In this document: one piece after another, positions 9,537-40,989 of the stretch
Numbering within the stretch: the first letter of the stretch is position 1
Layout: every line of letters starts with the position of its first letter
Assembly: GCF_001027745.1 (NCBI RefSeq)
Contig: NZ_LECU01000003.1
Span: forward strand, 124,001-188,000
Reading direction: 5' to 3'
Origin: Pedobacter sp. BMA
GTDB lineage: Bacteria > Bacteroidota > Bacteroidia > Sphingobacteriales > Sphingobacteriaceae
Length of the DNA stretch: 64,000 bases
Made by a program: the position numbers and the translations under genes
The notes under the pieces: generated by a model
The model's input: only the letters and a program-made list of their open reading frames with translations
The model's database searches: none
Told to the model about the DNA's origin: nothing

Positions 9537-9573
9537 AAACGAACAACCTATCCGGGATTGCTCGTTTCTTTTG
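9537..9573 (+). terminator. Probable terminator after the lipoprotein gene
   Basis: AAACGAAC / GCTCGTTT forms an 8-bp stem with one mismatch around a 15-nt loop, followed by a T-rich stretch, starting 6 bp after the stop. Confidence 0.5.
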
Positions 9574-9650
9574 TTTCTTTCGCAGCAAACTTCTCAGCCA
9601 TTCAGATGTTATGATTCAAATAATCAACCCATGATCAAAAACATCACAAC

Positions 9651-34931: not shown

Positions 34932-34950
34932 TAGTGTATTTTTTACACAC
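34932..34950. promoter_or_regulatory. Operator-like palindrome A, shared with two other sites
   Basis: TAGTGTA-TTTTT-TACACAC: the core GTGTA-N5-TACAC is perfect, with one mismatch further out. The same element recurs at 36795 and 40050. It lies between the divergent aldolase and kinase genes, 104 bp before the kinase ATG. It is the likely binding site of the Nudix-family regulator encoded at 36031-36720. Confidence 0.6.
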
Positions 34951-35053: not shown

Positions 35054-35911
35054 ATGATAGTAATTGCAGACGGTGGATCAACCAAAACAAATTGGTGTCT
35101 GATTAACGAGGCCGGCAGAAAAATTTACTTTAATACCGAGGGTTACAACCCTTATTTCTCCAAAGGAGAGTACATTGTAAAATCACTGAATGAAACTCTG
35201 CCAGACCACTTGGAAAGAGAAAAACTGACCGGAGTATATTACTATGGTGCTGGATGTTCTACGCCAGGAAATGTGAAAATTGTGGCAGATGCCATGAAAC
35301 AGGTTTTCACCAATGCCGATGTGTTCGTTGGCCATGATTTACTTGCCTCTTGCAGAGCACTTCTTGGGGACGAGCCAGGATTTGCAGCTATTTTGGGTAC
35401 AGGAACAAATTCATGTTTATACGACGGATCAGAAATTACGATGAATATCGATTCACTAGGGTACTTCCTGGGTGATGAAGGAAGTGGTTCATATATTGGC
35501 AAACGTATCCTGAGTGACTACATGAAAGGTTACATGCCTAAAGGATTACGGGAAGCTTTTTATGACAACTACGCATTAACAAATGAAGATATCTTCGATA
35601 ATATCTACAATAAGCCACTTCCAAACCGCTTCTGTGCAAGCTTTAGTAAATTTCTTTACGACTTCAAGGATTCTTACGAGGATTATGCCTTCAGCACGAT
35701 TGACTATGCTTTCACTGCTTTTTTCGAAGCTTTGGTTATCCACTATCCAAACTACAAAGATCATAAATTGAACTGTGTAGGTTCTGTAGGGTATAGCTTC
35801 CGAGATATTTTAAGTATTGTTGCCGATCGTTATGAAATGGGTGTTGGTAAGATTATCCGCTCACCAATAGATGACCTGGTACATTACCACCTGGAAATTG
35901 CAAAAAAATAA
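35054..35911 (+). CDS. N-acetylglucosamine-kinase-like protein, BadF/BadG/BcrA ATPase fold
   Basis: 285 residues from ATG 35054; a GTG 8 codons upstream is less likely because the family begins at MIVIADGGSTKTNW. That phosphate-1 loop with its Asp is intact. Also visible: VFVGHDLLASCRAL with the presumed catalytic Asp (about 97), GTGTNSCLYD (phosphate-2), GYFLGDEGSGSYIGK, and the adenosine motif region CVGSVGYSFRD. ASKHA-fold kinases of this group phosphorylate GlcNAc or glucosamine. It lies downstream of palindrome A. A paralog lies at 37818. Confidence 0.88.
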   Translation: MIVIADGGSTKTNWCLINEAGRKIYFNTEGYNPYFSKGEYIVKSLNETLPDHLEREKLTGVYYYGAGCSTPGNVKIVADAMKQVFTNADVFVGHDLLASCRALLGDEPGFAAILGTGTNSCLYDGSEITMNIDSLGYFLGDEGSGSYIGKRILSDYMKGYMPKGLREAFYDNYALTNEDIFDNIYNKPLPNRFCASFSKFLYDFKDSYEDYAFSTIDYAFTAFFEALVIHYPNYKDHKLNCVGSVGYSFRDILSIVADRYEMGVGKIIRSPIDDLVHYHLEIAKK

Positions 35912-36030: not shown

Positions 36031-36720
36031 TTAAAATGATATTTCTTTGCCAAATAGTTTGGCATATCGCCGTTTATCAAACCGGTATAACGTGGCAGCA
36101 CGATATGAAACACCCTTTTGCTTTTCATCGAGCTCCTTAAGCACACCAAAGCTCACTATTTTCTTTCTGAAGTTACGTTTGTCGAGCTTTTTACCTAAAA
36201 TCAACTCATACACATGCTGCAGCTGAGTTAAGGTAAATTTCTCTGGCAAAAGTTCAAAAGCAATAGGCTGGTGCTTAATTCTACGCTTTATTTTCTCCAG
36301 ACCTTTATCATAAATTTTCTGGTGATCAAAGGCTAATTTAGGAAGATCTGTAATCGGTAACCAGTTTGCCCGCTTGGCATAGTTACTGATCGGACGAAGT
36401 TCTTTATCACCTCCTAAACGGATAAGGGCATAATAGGCTAAGGTAATTACCCTGCCTTGTGGATGTCGGTTCGGATCGCCAAAAGCATAATACTGTTCCA
36501 TATATATGCCGCGTAAACCCGTGAGTTCATATAGAATCCGGGAGGCAGACTGATCGAGACTTTCATCAGGACCAACAATATTACCAGGCAATGCCCACCA
36601 ATCTTTAAATGGTTCTTCATTTCTTTCAATGAGTAGGATTTTGAGTTCCTTACCATCGAATCCAAACAAAACGCAATCTATTGAGAATACTGAATCTAAA
36701 TGAGGTAAAATTTGTTCCAA
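36031..36720 (-). CDS. Nudix-family transcriptional regulator (NrtR/AraR-like)
   Basis: 229 residues. Residues 10-140 form a Nudix domain (DCVLFGFDGKELKILLIERNEEPFKDWWALPGNIVGPDES in outline, then YYAFGDPNRHPQGRVITLAYYAL). The Nudix box is degraded: the usual RExxEE reads RILYEL, so two catalytic glutamates are missing and hydrolysis is unlikely. Residues 150-229 are a winged helix (FELLPEKFTLTQLQHVYELI, LDKRNFRKKIV, GVSYRAATLYRFD). In NrtR-type regulators the Nudix part senses a sugar or nucleotide metabolite. It is divergent from pfkA, with a palindrome between them, so it probably controls itself and the glycolytic operon. Confidence 0.92.
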   Translation of the reverse strand: MEQILPHLDSVFSIDCVLFGFDGKELKILLIERNEEPFKDWWALPGNIVGPDESLDQSASRILYELTGLRGIYMEQYYAFGDPNRHPQGRVITLAYYALIRLGGDKELRPISNYAKRANWLPITDLPKLAFDHQKIYDKGLEKIKRRIKHQPIAFELLPEKFTLTQLQHVYELILGKKLDKRNFRKKIVSFGVLKELDEKQKGVSYRAATLYRFDKRRYAKLFGKEISF

Positions 36721-36794: not shown

Positions 36795-36815
36795 TAGTGT
36801 AAAAATTACACACTA
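36795..36815. promoter_or_regulatory. Operator-like palindrome B between the regulator and pfkA
   Basis: TTAGTGTA-AAAAT-TACACACTA: core GTGTA-N5-TACAC is perfect (36797-36811). It sits immediately before the pfkA -7 element and 77 bp from the regulator ATG, which suits a repressor acting on both genes. Confidence 0.65.
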
Positions 36816-36831: not shown

Positions 36832-37818
36832 ATGAAGCCAAATATTAAAAATATAGCTGTACTGACTTCTGGAGGTGATGCTCCCGGGATGAATGCTGCG
36901 ATAAGAGCTGTTGTACGTACCGGCATTTACCATGGCATTAATATGTTTGGGGTAATGCAAGGATACCAGGGTTTAATTACCGACAACATAAAACCAATGG
37001 ACGCCCGTTCTGTAAGCAACATTTTACACCTGGGCGGAACGATATTAAAAACTGCACGTTGCCTCGAGTTCAAAACTGAAGAGGGACAACAGATTGCTTA
37101 TAATAACCTAAAGAAAAACGACATTGATGCATTAGTGGTTATCGGTGGAGACGGGACATTTACCGGAGCTAAACGTTTCTCAGAGACTTTTGGTGTTAAA
37201 GTAATCGGGATACCAGGAACTATTGATAATGACTTGGTTGGTTCGGATTTTACATTAGGTTATGATACGGCAATTAATACGGTAATTGAAGCGATTGACA
37301 AAATCAGAGATACTGCAGATGCACACGACAGGTTATTCTTTATAGAGGTAATGGGGCGTGATTCAGGGTGTATAGCACTTAGAAGTTCAATTGCAACCGG
37401 CGCGGAAGCGGTATTATTACCTGAACGTGAAACGAGCGTAACAGAACTGATCGAAAAACTTGCGTTAGGTGCAGCCACGAAAAAATCTTCGAGTATCGTA
37501 ATTGTAGCAGAGGGACATAAACAAGGCGGAGCATACGATATAGCAAAAAAAGTGAAGGAAACTTTTGATCATTATGACACAAAAGTTACCATCCTTGGTC
37601 ATCTTCAACGCGGTGGAAGTCCTAGTAGTTTCGACAGAATTTTAGGCAGCAGACTTGGTTTTGCGGCCGTAAATGCCTTAATTGCAGGCGAAACAGAACA
37701 AATGGTTGGCTTAAAAGGCAACGAGATAAAAATGACGAGCATAACAGAGGCACTTACCTCGCATAGCTTTAAGCTTGAACCAGATTTAATGGAAATGACG
37801 GAGGTACTCTCTATATAA
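36832..37818 (+). CDS. pfkA: ATP-dependent 6-phosphofructokinase
   Basis: 328 residues. It phosphorylates fructose 6-phosphate, the committed step of glycolysis. Family motifs: VLTSGGDAPGMNAAIRAVVR (ATP site, about 10-28), VIGGDGTFTGA with GGDGT, the active-site PGTIDNDLVGSDFTLG with catalytic Asp (about 133), VMGRDSGCIAL, PERET, and GHLQRGGSPSSFDR. A glycine after GGD (GGDGT) is the ATP-dependent pattern. First gene of an operon; its TAA shares one base with the next ATG (TAATG). Confidence 0.97.
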   Translation: MKPNIKNIAVLTSGGDAPGMNAAIRAVVRTGIYHGINMFGVMQGYQGLITDNIKPMDARSVSNILHLGGTILKTARCLEFKTEEGQQIAYNNLKKNDIDALVVIGGDGTFTGAKRFSETFGVKVIGIPGTIDNDLVGSDFTLGYDTAINTVIEAIDKIRDTADAHDRLFFIEVMGRDSGCIALRSSIATGAEAVLLPERETSVTELIEKLALGAATKKSSSIVIVAEGHKQGGAYDIAKKVKETFDHYDTKVTILGHLQRGGSPSSFDRILGSRLGFAAVNALIAGETEQMVGLKGNEIKMTSITEALTSHSFKLEPDLMEMTEVLSI

Positions 37819-38660
37819 TGATAGCAGTTGTTTACAGCGGATCGAGAACGGCATTTTGGAAGTTAACTCAAAATGGGAAAGTGATTGCTCACTGCAATAC
37901 TTCAGGTATAAACCCGTGCTTTGTAGACGCCAAAACAACATTACAGATCCTGAATAAAAAAGTTGCCCTGGTTAACAACGCAGAGAACATTAAAAAAATT
38001 TATTTCTTTGCTGCAGGTGCTTCCTCACCAGACAGGCAGGAGGAACTGGCTAAAACCTTATCATCTTTTTTCAGGTATAGTAAAATATTTGTTCAAAACG
38101 ATTTATTTGGAGCAGCGAAAGCAGCTTGTTACGATAAACCGGGCATAGTAGCCATGCTTGGTAGCGGCGCAAATTGTGCCTACTTCGACGGTAAAAAACC
38201 TCTTAACAACAATTTTGGACTAGGATATATCCTTGGCGATGAGGGATCATCAAATTATTTTGGCAAAATGCTACTTAAAAATTTTTTAAGCAGAGATTTA
38301 CCTGCTGATCTGGAAAAAAAATTCGTCAAAAACTACAATTTAGACAGGCCGCAAATTCTGGAAAGAATTTACAATAAGCCTCAAGTCAATGTCTTTCTAA
38401 CCTCTTTCTTCGACTTCTTTACCCAAAACATTAACAATGACTATATCATTAGAATGATTGATACAGGATTTGAGAAACACTTCGATACTTATATCCTGCC
38501 TATGGTAGAAAAGTATGGAGATAAAGAGCTTCATTTTGTAGGTAAAGTAGCTGCTGAATTGGAAGAACGTTTACAGCTTACCGCAAAAAAATATAATCTT
38601 GAAATAAAAAGCATTATTAAAGAACCTATAGTAAATTTATTAAAACATTACACTAATTAA
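37818..38660 (+). CDS. Divergent GlcNAc-kinase paralog, probably non-catalytic
   Basis: 280 residues, the same BadF/BadG/BcrA fold as the gene at 35054, sharing LGYILGDEGSSNYFGK, ERIYNKP, and overall length. Key changes: the phosphate-1 loop DGGST is YSGSR, with Asp replaced by Tyr; GTGTNS is GSGANC; the GSV adenosine motif is GKV. The presumed base Asp in VQNDL remains. Loss of the first Asp normally abolishes Mg-ATP handling in ASKHA kinases, so this may be a sensor or regulatory pseudokinase, or may use another chemistry. It is translationally coupled to pfkA and lies 9 bp before gapA. Confidence 0.88.
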   Translation: MIAVVYSGSRTAFWKLTQNGKVIAHCNTSGINPCFVDAKTTLQILNKKVALVNNAENIKKIYFFAAGASSPDRQEELAKTLSSFFRYSKIFVQNDLFGAAKAACYDKPGIVAMLGSGANCAYFDGKKPLNNNFGLGYILGDEGSSNYFGKMLLKNFLSRDLPADLEKKFVKNYNLDRPQILERIYNKPQVNVFLTSFFDFFTQNINNDYIIRMIDTGFEKHFDTYILPMVEKYGDKELHFVGKVAAELEERLQLTAKKYNLEIKSIIKEPIVNLLKHYTN

Positions 38661-39668
<1,008 letters not shown>

Positions 39669-39702: not shown

Positions 39703-39740
39703 AAGAGGTGATGTTCTAAAAAACATCACCTCTTTATTTT
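39703..39740 (+). terminator. Terminator of the pfkA-gapA operon
   Basis: Perfect 13-bp stem AAGAGGTGATGTT / AACATCACCTCTT with a 6-nt loop and a following TTATTTTT, 35 bp after gapA. Confidence 0.92.
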
Positions 39741-39959: not shown

Positions 39960-39967
39960 TATATTTG
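39960..39967 (+). promoter_or_regulatory. Possible -7 element upstream of the palindrome C region
   Basis: TATATTTG, an exact TAnnTTTG match, 62 bp before the small ORF at 40022. No clear -33 element. Confidence 0.3.
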
Positions 39968-40021: not shown

Positions 40022-40123
40022 ATGACAAAAAAAATACTTAAAAATTTCTTAGTGTATTTTTTACACTATCAATTTTTTTACTATATTTGTAGAGTAATAA
40101 ACGAACAGGGTTTGTTACCTTAA
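40022..40123 (+). CDS. Possible 33-residue hydrophobic small ORF (doubtful)
   Basis: ATG 40022 to TAA 40123 encodes 33 residues with a Lys-rich start and a Phe/Tyr/Ile-rich middle (KKILKNFLVYFLHYQFFYY), like a tiny membrane peptide. It lies downstream of the -7 element at 39960 but runs through palindrome C and the second promoter, so its composition may simply reflect AT-rich regulatory DNA. Confidence 0.15.
   Translation: MTKKILKNFLVYFLHYQFFYYICRVINEQGLLP
40050..40068. promoter_or_regulatory. Operator-like palindrome C, perfect copy
   Basis: TAGTGTA-TTTTT-TACACTA, a perfect 7-5-7 palindrome and the best of the three copies. It overlaps the expected -33 region of the TATATTTG promoter at 40082, as a repressor site would. 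Confidence 0.65.
40082..40089 (+). promoter_or_regulatory. -7 element of the candidate small RNA
   Basis: TATATTTG, an exact TAnnTTTG match 13 bp after palindrome C. Transcription should start near 40096. Confidence 0.55.
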
Positions 40124-40250
40124 AAAAGATAAATCATTTTCGAGTAATGCGAATAGCCTGAAAGAAAATTAAAGACAAAGCCTGGCTCATAACAGGTTTA
40201 TATTTGGTTAGAAAAAAGAGACACATCTGGATAGAGTGTCTCTTTTCTTT
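40096..40250 (+). ncRNA. Candidate regulated small RNA, about 155 nt
   Basis: Bounded by a promoter with an operator-like site upstream and a strong terminator. I checked all three forward frames: the only ATG frame inside is 4 codons (40147), and TTG/GTG frames are short or run through the terminator. A second 7-bp hairpin lies at 40178-40199 (AAGCCTG / CAGGTTT, one G-T pair). The next gene is on the opposite strand, so this is not a normal mRNA leader. Being RNA with a function is inference; no homology is recognised. Confidence 0.5.
40214..40250 (+). terminator. Terminator of the candidate small RNA
   Basis: Perfect 11-bp stem AAAAGAGACAC / GTGTCTCTTTT with an 11-nt loop and a T-rich tail. 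No ORF ends in the preceding 90 bp. Confidence 0.85.
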
Positions 40251-40380: not shown

Positions 40381-40989
40381 TTAGTCTAATTCTTTTATCA
40401 ACTTACTTCTAATACGACTAAGTGTTTCCAATCGCATTCCTAAAAAGCTGGCTAAACATCTTAATGGCACGTTTGAGGTATCGAACGAATTGAGCTCCAG
40501 AAATTTTTCATATCGCCGTTCCGCTGATGGAATCCTCGCCAGGATGGATCTTTCGCAGGCAGCATGATATTGAAGTGCCAGGATTTTCCGTCCAATAATA
40601 TTAGTTTCAGCATACAAGTCATATAACATTTGAATGGCTGCATTCGGAATAGCCACCAGTTCGGTATCTTCCAAAGCCTGCAGGTACTCTATTGAAGGGC
40701 TTATTGATTCACTTGGAGCTTGAATTGCTCCGATGAACTCATTCCCCAAGCTAATCCAGGTGGTAATATCTTTATGATCCTCTTTTATAAATCCCCTCAC
40801 CAAACCATTTACAACAAAATAAACGGATACGTTGTGATCCAAAGGCGAAAGGATGTACTTATTTTTCCTAACCAGCATAGCATGCGAATTATTTTTTACC
40901 TCTTTTACAAAGCCATTGGATATTGGACTTAGGTTGCGGAAATAATCAAGCATAGCATCGACCAGGAAAATCTTACGAGATTCGAGCAT
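40381..40989 (-). CDS. Crp/Fnr family transcriptional regulator
   Basis: 202 residues. The first 120 residues form a cyclic-nucleotide-binding-like barrel (ILSPLDHNVSVYFVVNGLVRGFIKE, LGNEFIGAIQ, ALEDTELVAIPNAAIQMLY). The C-terminal part is a helix-turn-helix (VPLRCLASFLGMRLETLSRIRSKL). No Cys cluster for an Fe-S centre is present. This Bacteroidota-type group usually lacks known ligands. It stands alone with no obvious target next to it. Confidence 0.92.
   Translation of the reverse strand: MLESRKIFLVDAMLDYFRNLSPISNGFVKEVKNNSHAMLVRKNKYILSPLDHNVSVYFVVNGLVRGFIKEDHKDITTWISLGNEFIGAIQAPSESISPSIEYLQALEDTELVAIPNAAIQMLYDLYAETNIIGRKILALQYHAACERSILARIPSAERRYEKFLELNSFDTSNVPLRCLASFLGMRLETLSRIRSKLIKELD

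Follow-up and report, generated by a model that had tools for sequence, protein, structure and literature searches.

What is made from a locus in Pedobacter sp. BMA at which a palindrome, a promoter box and a terminator enclose about 155 nt that hold no convincing gene? The locus lies in the window, by which we mean the whole stretch of 64,000 nucleotides that was analysed. An earlier note, made from the letters alone, had taken it for a small RNA (sRNA) gene that is co-regulated with pfkA and gapA and is perhaps a partner of central carbon genes. The features of the locus are as follows.

40050-40068, no strand assigned: operator, an exact palindrome TAGTGTA-N5-TACACTA, with its centre at about -36 from the predicted start
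40082-40089, plus strand: promoter -7 box TATATTTG, by sequence match
40094-40250, plus strand: sRNA gene, with both ends predicted
40097-40115, plus strand: 5' hairpin of the long, gapA-linked form (RNAalifold, 28 sequences)
40136-40169, plus strand: middle helix, variable in sequence (consensus fold, 28 sequences)
40178-40199, plus strand: core hairpin AAGCCUG-GCUCAUAA-CAGGUUU (consensus fold)
40193-40211, plus strand: invariant 19-mer CAGGTTTATATTTGGTTAG, including the unpaired UAUUUGGUUAG, the proposed seed (53 of 53 copies)
40214-40246, plus strand: intrinsic terminator with an 11-bp stem, a bulged purine, two covarying base pairs and a YGGAUR loop

The earlier note had claimed for this unit the best copy of the palindrome, an exact TAnnTTTG promoter, an 11-bp terminator stem, about 155 nt with no reading frame beyond 4 codons, and a next gene on the other strand (40381-40989, minus), and each of these was found again. 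The TATATTTG sequence is presumably a -7 box of the kind found in Bacteroidota promoters. The predicted transcript, which starts near 40095 and is about 155 nt long, contains a single ATG that opens 4 codons, and no frame of at least 5 codons from ATG, GTG or TTG was found within it. The terminator reads AAAAGAGACAC-A-UC-UGGAUA-GA-GUGUCUCUUUU, a stem of 11 bp followed by a bulged A and two more pairs that close a hexaloop. For the fold, the z-score is -3.6, and 1 of 200 shuffles did equally well. Having a promoter box and a terminator and no 5-codon frame, the locus is, as read from its sequence, an independent noncoding transcription unit; it is almost certain that the element exists and is conserved, and these signals predict an sRNA transcript. 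A second TATATTTG box lies upstream of the operator at 39960-39967, and a block ATGACAAAAAAAATA at 40022-40036, before the operator, is conserved in 48 of the 53 full-length copies; this box and block perhaps mark a second start or the site of another factor.

The genes and sites around the locus were annotated by profile searches and pattern matching.

34932-34950, plus strand: operator copy before the first GlcNAc-kinase-like gene
35054-35911, plus strand: GlcNAc-kinase-like gene (PF01869 3e-07, just below the cut-off; NF046058 1.3e-05, far below the cut-off)
36031-36720, minus strand: regulator with NUDIX domain and NrtR/AraR-type winged helix (PF21906 3.4e-29, PF19368 1.3e-15, PF00293 8.7e-13)
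36795-36813, plus strand: operator copy before pfkA
36832-37818, plus strand: pfkA (PF00365 1.1e-110)
37818-38660, plus strand: GlcNAc-kinase-like gene between pfkA and gapA (NF046058 1.4e-04, far below the cut-off; no Pfam match)
38670-39668, plus strand: gapA, the upstream neighbour of the sRNA (profile match)
39703-39734: terminator-like hairpin of gapA itself
40381-40989, minus strand: Crp-type regulator, a weak match (PF00027 1.7e-05, below the Pfam cut-off), convergent with the sRNA and not constant among orthologues

Within the window, palindrome copies with 2 mismatches start at 34932 and 36795, and the count of 3 copies with up to 3 mismatches, compared with 1.98 expected, is not significant alone. 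Across the whole genome the exact pattern TAGTGTAN5TACAC occurs at 9 distinct sites and the reversed pattern at none. Operator sites were found at the sRNA, pfkA, a GlcNAc-kinase-like gene, gnd (TIGR00873, 1e-170) and the pyruvate kinase gene pyk (TIGR01064, 7e-159), and a further site lies between pdhB and an efflux gene. Another (L449, G000:C5:225572) follows a TACATTTG box and immediately precedes the start codon of a gene for outer-membrane efflux; it may be either a regulon member or a chance match; a site inside a reading frame is probably due to chance. Site L447 (G000:C4:638572) is flanked by a LacI-type gene and by a susC gene with TAACCAAAT in its leader (L360), and this susC gene is possibly under double control.

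The product of 36031-36720 has both the NUDIX domain and the NrtR winged helix of its family in Pfam, and its best NCBIfam match, the ADP-ribose-responsive repressor NF050029 (1.7e-44), is below the cut-off of that model. At 1e-20, 95 of 101 family genomes have a homologue, though some of these may not be orthologues. Among the best 30 of these loci, pfkA is beside the regulator in 27 and an operator-like site is present at 25; 400 kb of background held 2 such sites. This neighbouring NUDIX/NrtR-type regulator probably has the palindrome as its operator, would bind it directly and presumably acts as a repressor answering to an effector; the operator sites overlap the predicted pfkA and sRNA promoters, which suits repression. 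A regulon that includes glycolysis genes, gnd and the sRNA is well supported, and the same kind of operator precedes the pfkA-gapA operon, in line with the co-regulation proposed earlier.

A DNA match to the sRNA was found in 142 of 145 genus genomes, the BMA genome included, many of the matches being partial, and 57 matches (again including BMA) were nearly full length with at least 79% identity. The full-length set consisted of 53 of these 57 copies, and full-length copies of lower identity, such as those in G072 and G057, were not counted. The exact palindrome, TATATTTG and the 19-mer CAGGTTTATATTTGGTTAG are kept in 53/53 copies, a 38-nt block in 52/53, and gapA lies upstream on the same strand in all 53, with varying genes downstream; the core is constant among the copies while the flanks diverge. 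An exact scan of species genomes with the 19-mer returned at least 119 stretches, and the 119 listed come from Pedobacter (110), Nubsella (1) and MAGs or strains assigned only to a family, order or phylum (8). Among the matches listed there were 120 places: 47 behind gapA with the operator, 22 in the form of a gapA 3'UTR, starting 19-23 nt behind the gapA end and without the operator, 1 behind gapA where the operator was not found, 12 elsewhere with the operator and 17 elsewhere without it, with 20 at a stretch edge left undecided and 1 not an element. The RNA thus adjoins gapA in 70 of the 99 decided places among the matches listed. The window copy is not itself 3'UTR-derived: an operator and a promoter box stand before it, and gapA is followed by a separate terminator-like hairpin. 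There are then, as far as gene arrangement indicates, two production routes among close relatives: a free-standing unit with an operator, or the gapA 3'UTR. A third class of core, reading CTCCTGGCTCAAACAGG or nearly so, was seen at L054, L057, L070, L103, L121 and L168; the operator was not found within about 230 nt upstream at these six loci, and at L054 and L070 the core appeared by eye to follow the end of an open reading frame.

A covariation search, which the earlier note had suggested, was carried out with RNAalifold, using 28 divergent full-length copies. Of the 33 pairs in the consensus fold, 13 show changes on both sides; such changes affect 6 of 7 pairs in the middle helix and 1 of 6 in the 5' hairpin. 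The core hairpin is invariant in the 28 sequences, so that its pairing is neither supported nor refuted by covariation. The core hairpin of model R1 (RNAalifold), which pairs invariant letters, was set aside. The terminator was compared over 149 rows, less 3 that were left out (L104, which is cut; L099, not an element; and L109, with a GAAT loop), and identical hairpins were merged to give 86 distinct hairpins of the 19-mer elements listed. All 86 keep the inner two pairs, as TC/GA (61), CT/AG (14), CG/CG (8), TC/GG (2) or CC/GG (1), below a YGGATR loop, and the bulged base is a purine in 78. Only 2 hairpins of this form, that of the sRNA included, occur in 464 kb of the BMA genome, so this is not the ordinary local terminator. 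The second of these two, also terminator-like with a YGGATR loop and a 2-bp upper stem, is in the window at about 9540-9575 on the minus strand. The changes on both sides of pairs support the conservation of the element as an RNA and, with its standing as a lone noncoding unit, agree with the small RNA originally suspected.

Model R1 matched 150 of 251 family genomes at E <=0.01. Most of its weak matches inspected in other genera carry the core TTTAGGTTTATAATTGGTTAG or a close variant, which is not clearly present at L233 and L237, and they mostly end in a different terminator, CCTGCCCATCAGG, in place of the YGGAUR hairpin; operator-like TAGTGTTACTTTTACACTA or a variant lies just upstream in six other-genus loci (genera g14 and g3). 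Model R2, built on a wider sequence set, gave matches at E <=1e-3 (weakest 8.8e-4) in 245 of 250 sampled order genomes and 14 of 16 genera. All of the positive genomes belong to Sphingobacteriaceae, the family of Pedobacter itself, with 1-19 matches each (7-19 in genus g16, 8-17 in g4). Across the class, 19 of 395 genomes were matched; 15 belong to the same family, and the remaining 4, with E from 2e-4 to 6.5e-4, are weak and near the level that chance and rough calibration allow. In six g16 copies the core begins directly behind a TAnnTTTG-like box, so that a minimal RNA would be about 60 nt, the core plus the terminator. In three genomes of g16 (G159, G194, G221), the genus in which the sRNA is at its most multicopy, the best regulator match contains one or two internal stop codons.

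Some copies were observed beside tRNA genes or tRNA-like sequences. At L225 a called tRNA-Cys is directly upstream of the element, and at six loci of genus g21 (L228, L229, L230, L232, L235, L236) the element lies, by eye, 3' of a tRNA-Leu-like sequence for which ARAGORN made no tRNA call; the pair is repeated in 5 of these 6 stretches at intervals of 378 to 943 nt, frequently about 400. The BMA genome also contains a weak model match with the same hairpin and a degenerate core (L240, G000:C10:105358-105455). Rfam at the gathering score gave no match in the whole window, and when Rfam 15 was scanned with cmscan at permissive E-values no bacterial sRNA family came up at the sRNA; the matches were weak only, such as snoR07 at 40121-40212 (E 1.1). 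Pedo-repair (from Pedobacter, RF01715) and Flavo-1, RNAs named in the portion of PMC2864571 consulted, were not among the permissive matches, and no published description of the family was found in open-licence PMC or Rfam. We conclude that core and terminator define a new family within a known kind of RNA, unusual in being coupled to glycolysis and to gapA.

One way to account for so constant a core and terminator is that they bind a protein, for instance one of the RbpB-type RRM class, and serve as a stabilising 3' end, a processing signal or a sponge, any match to susC being secondary. The bulged purine and the fixed YGGAUR loop do resemble a protein site, the hairpin is rare in the BMA genome (2 in 464 kb), that genome encodes one RRM_1 protein of 107 aa (G000:C11:42760), and the same module is used as a gapA 3'UTR and directly behind the called tRNA-Cys. 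The other-genus copies, however, keep the core but mostly have the loop of CCTGCCCATCAGG or others rather than YGGAUR, and a protein site gives no prediction of complementarity to susC leaders, so that we regard this explanation as unlikely.

Such complementarity was found. Read as its reverse complement, the core looks like a translation start region (CUAACCAAAUAUAAACCUGUUAUGAGCC), and target prediction, also suggested in the earlier note, was carried out on 48 susC starts of the BMA genome (48 of 49 kept, one having no usable ATG) and on 354 other genes from 464 kb of the same genome, with background reading frames of at least 900 aa or containing N left out. Duplexes with Z < -2 were predicted for 13/48 susC leaders and 19/354 others (Fisher 1.3e-5); the remaining 35 susC leaders fail to reach Z -2. 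Below -18 kcal/mol the native core gave 11/48 against 29/354, compared with 3/48 against 19/354 for the reversed core, 0/48 against 6/354 for the complement and 0/48 against 9/354 for the reverse complement. The word TAACCAAA is present in 10/48 susC leaders and 0/354 others (p 2.4e-10), and AACCAAAT in 12/48 and 3/354. When words were counted regardless of the sRNA, AACCAAA was the commonest 7-mer of the susC leaders and ACCAAAT joint second; AACCAAA stands at changing distances before the start codon, and the 14 leaders that bear it are otherwise dissimilar (mean global alignment score 0.40 of the maximum). In the best case (L323, -25.5 kcal/mol) the pairing involves AUGAGCC over the start codon together with AACCAAAUAA. 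A search for long targets in the same genome, using the 19-nt complement with up to 3 mismatches, gave 3 matches, the sRNA gene included, and the reversed control gave 5. The signal for targets is confined to a short seed and, for the best leaders, added pairing at the start codon. The listed 19-mer stretches contain 2 distinct susC starts, and the target word is in neither.

The enrichment was replicated in G107 (9/15 susC against 11/100 background, p 3e-4) and, with its own core, in G159 (14/40 against 17/164, p 1.2e-5), and 6/15 susC leaders were counted in G072, where no background was used. AACCAAA occurs in 10/30 susC leaders of G072 and G107 together, against 4/100. These figures are based on 30 of 106 susC genes in G072 and G107 (30 kept) and 40 of 49 listed in G159 (40 kept), and a further 20 of 51 listed susC matches were taken from G192 (18 kept). 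The seed reads UUUGG in BMA and AUUGG in G159 and G192, and the ratio of CCAAAT to CCAATT in susC leaders is 14:1 in BMA and 1:6 in G159 and G192 together (p 6e-4). The ratio in the background also differs, at 13:7 in BMA and 4:5 in G159, and AACCAATT, the exact fit to the g16 seed, is not enriched in the G159 leaders (1/40 against 1/164), so the data stop short of strict co-evolution of seed and leader. TAACCAAA is found in 3/40 G159 susC leaders and 1/164 of the background, and neither TAACCAAA nor AACCAATT in the G192 leaders (0/18). The foreign g16 core did no worse than the native one on the BMA leaders (15/48), and the native core reached 7/40 on those of G159. The core complement is enriched in susC start regions as would be expected of a conserved seed for a target class, and the predicted susC targeting is supported by statistics in three genomes with a background and a fourth without one. 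The idea that the sRNA is a partner of central carbon genes found no support in these comparisons, which took susC as their gene class; the core is instead complementary to translation-initiation regions of susC, so that of the earlier reading the sRNA and its co-regulation stand, and the likely targets become importers.

The sRNA could be as described and act mainly on other targets, or could activate susC or other mRNAs. The susC genes were the sole gene class tested, against a background drawn from 464 kb of one genome, and duplexes below -20 kcal/mol were predicted for 13/354 non-susC genes as well as for 7/48 susC. Against this alternative are the enrichment in susC leaders and the best cases, which span the start codon, a position at which binding by the Bacteroides sRNAs GibS and FopS represses, according to the parts of PMC7366714 and PMC11697453 consulted; we likewise hold it to be improbable.

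We consider it probable that the locus encodes a trans-acting, base-pairing sRNA of the Sphingobacteriaceae that is co-expressed with glycolysis and represses glycan importers of the susC type. When the regulator releases its operators, the sRNA would be made alongside the glycolytic enzymes, or in some species as the 3'UTR of gapA. The invariant core (UAUUUGGUUAG and its flanks) would then pair with many susC mRNAs at their leader and start codon, blocking translation of these TonB-dependent glycan importers, so that cells whose glycolysis is fully supplied would cease building them. The sign of the effect on susC is presumably repression, and full pairing would require the core hairpin to open. 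As the tRNA-linked copies and some 3'UTR copies were found without an operator, glycolytic control would not be general. Other points against this explanation are the 35 of 48 BMA susC leaders that miss Z -2, the g16 core doing no worse than the native one on those leaders, and the internal stop codons in the regulator matches of three g16 genomes. More tentatively, and with somewhat less than even confidence, the RNA may be a family-wide arm of carbon catabolite control in which glycolytic activity yields an sRNA that silences dozens of susC genes at once, the terminator serves as a protein site, and the module has been multiplied, also behind tRNA genes, for other signals. If this is true, lineages with up to 19 matches per genome would couple importer control to further signals. 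The finding bears on how Bacteroidota restrain many glycan importers when easy sugar is present, and provides a named seed, target class and regulator that can be tested in culturable Pedobacter, as well as one sRNA that close relatives carry in two forms, as the gapA 3'UTR in some and as a unit by itself in others.

The locus could also encode a short translated peptide or a dual-function RNA, since a 12-codon ATG frame (MFITxKKDKSFS and variants) is present in a subset of the 53 orthologues. This frame is absent from the window, frames from that ATG range from 5 to 28 codons, and the 3'UTR and short forms do not have the region at all, which makes a peptide very improbable. A conserved peptide, the outcome that the earlier note had said would speak against an sRNA, was rejected, the frame being variable in length or missing among orthologues. 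A spreading repeat or general terminator cassette with no regulatory role would fit the multicopy occurrence behind unrelated genes and in repeated tRNA-like arrays, but hardly deserves credence given the fixed place behind gapA, the operator and promoter box in 53/53 copies, the constant core compared with diverging flanks, and the enrichment of seed targets.

The proposed sRNA resembles several known systems in part. The enterobacterial sRNAs SgrS and Spot 42 are tied to glucose metabolism, limit the import or use of sugars and depend on Hfq; the Pedobacter RNA has a similar proposed tie to sugar metabolism with other regulators and targets, a comparison by description. Small RNAs derived from 3'UTRs, which share the terminator of their mRNA, are a known type, and 22 of the 120 listed places are of this form, whereas the window copy and 47 places are separate units with their own operator. 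Bacteroides, according to a passage of PMC7366714, has neither a recognisable Hfq nor a recognisable ProQ. Like the NrtR-family sugar regulators AraR (BT0354) and XylR (BT0791) of Bacteroides, which combine a NUDIX domain and a winged helix (passages of PMC4666351 and PMC3878776), the window regulator has both parts. AraR releases DNA when it binds L-arabinose and has a regulon that includes two susC/susD pairs, as a passage of PMC4666351 describes. Unlike AraR and XylR, the window regulator is a neighbour of pfkA, and among the genes at its sites are those of glycolysis and an sRNA; the words glycolysis, pfkA and Pedobacter are absent from the main text of PMC4666351, and gapA and pfkA from that of the 2013 regulator paper (PMC3878776). 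The closest likeness is to GibS and FopS, for which a conserved unpaired seed, an intrinsic terminator and binding to translation-initiation regions were shown by experiment (PMC7366714 and PMC11697453, in the sections consulted). In those same sections GibS is described as induced by GlcNAc (PMC7366714), and FopS as multicopy (14), binding mostly susC mRNAs, with sigma-ABfr promoters and possibly a bile response (PMC11697453). On paper the Pedobacter sRNA would work as these do, being likened to them by description, not by seed sequence or homology; unlike them, it has no Rfam match above chance and 4 weak class matches outside its family. It shares with both the conserved single-stranded seed (here a proposed one) and intrinsic terminator of a Bacteroidota sRNA, and with FopS the multicopy state and susC leaders as predicted targets, but unlike FopS it has the same operators as glycolysis genes and in some species takes the form of a gapA 3'UTR.
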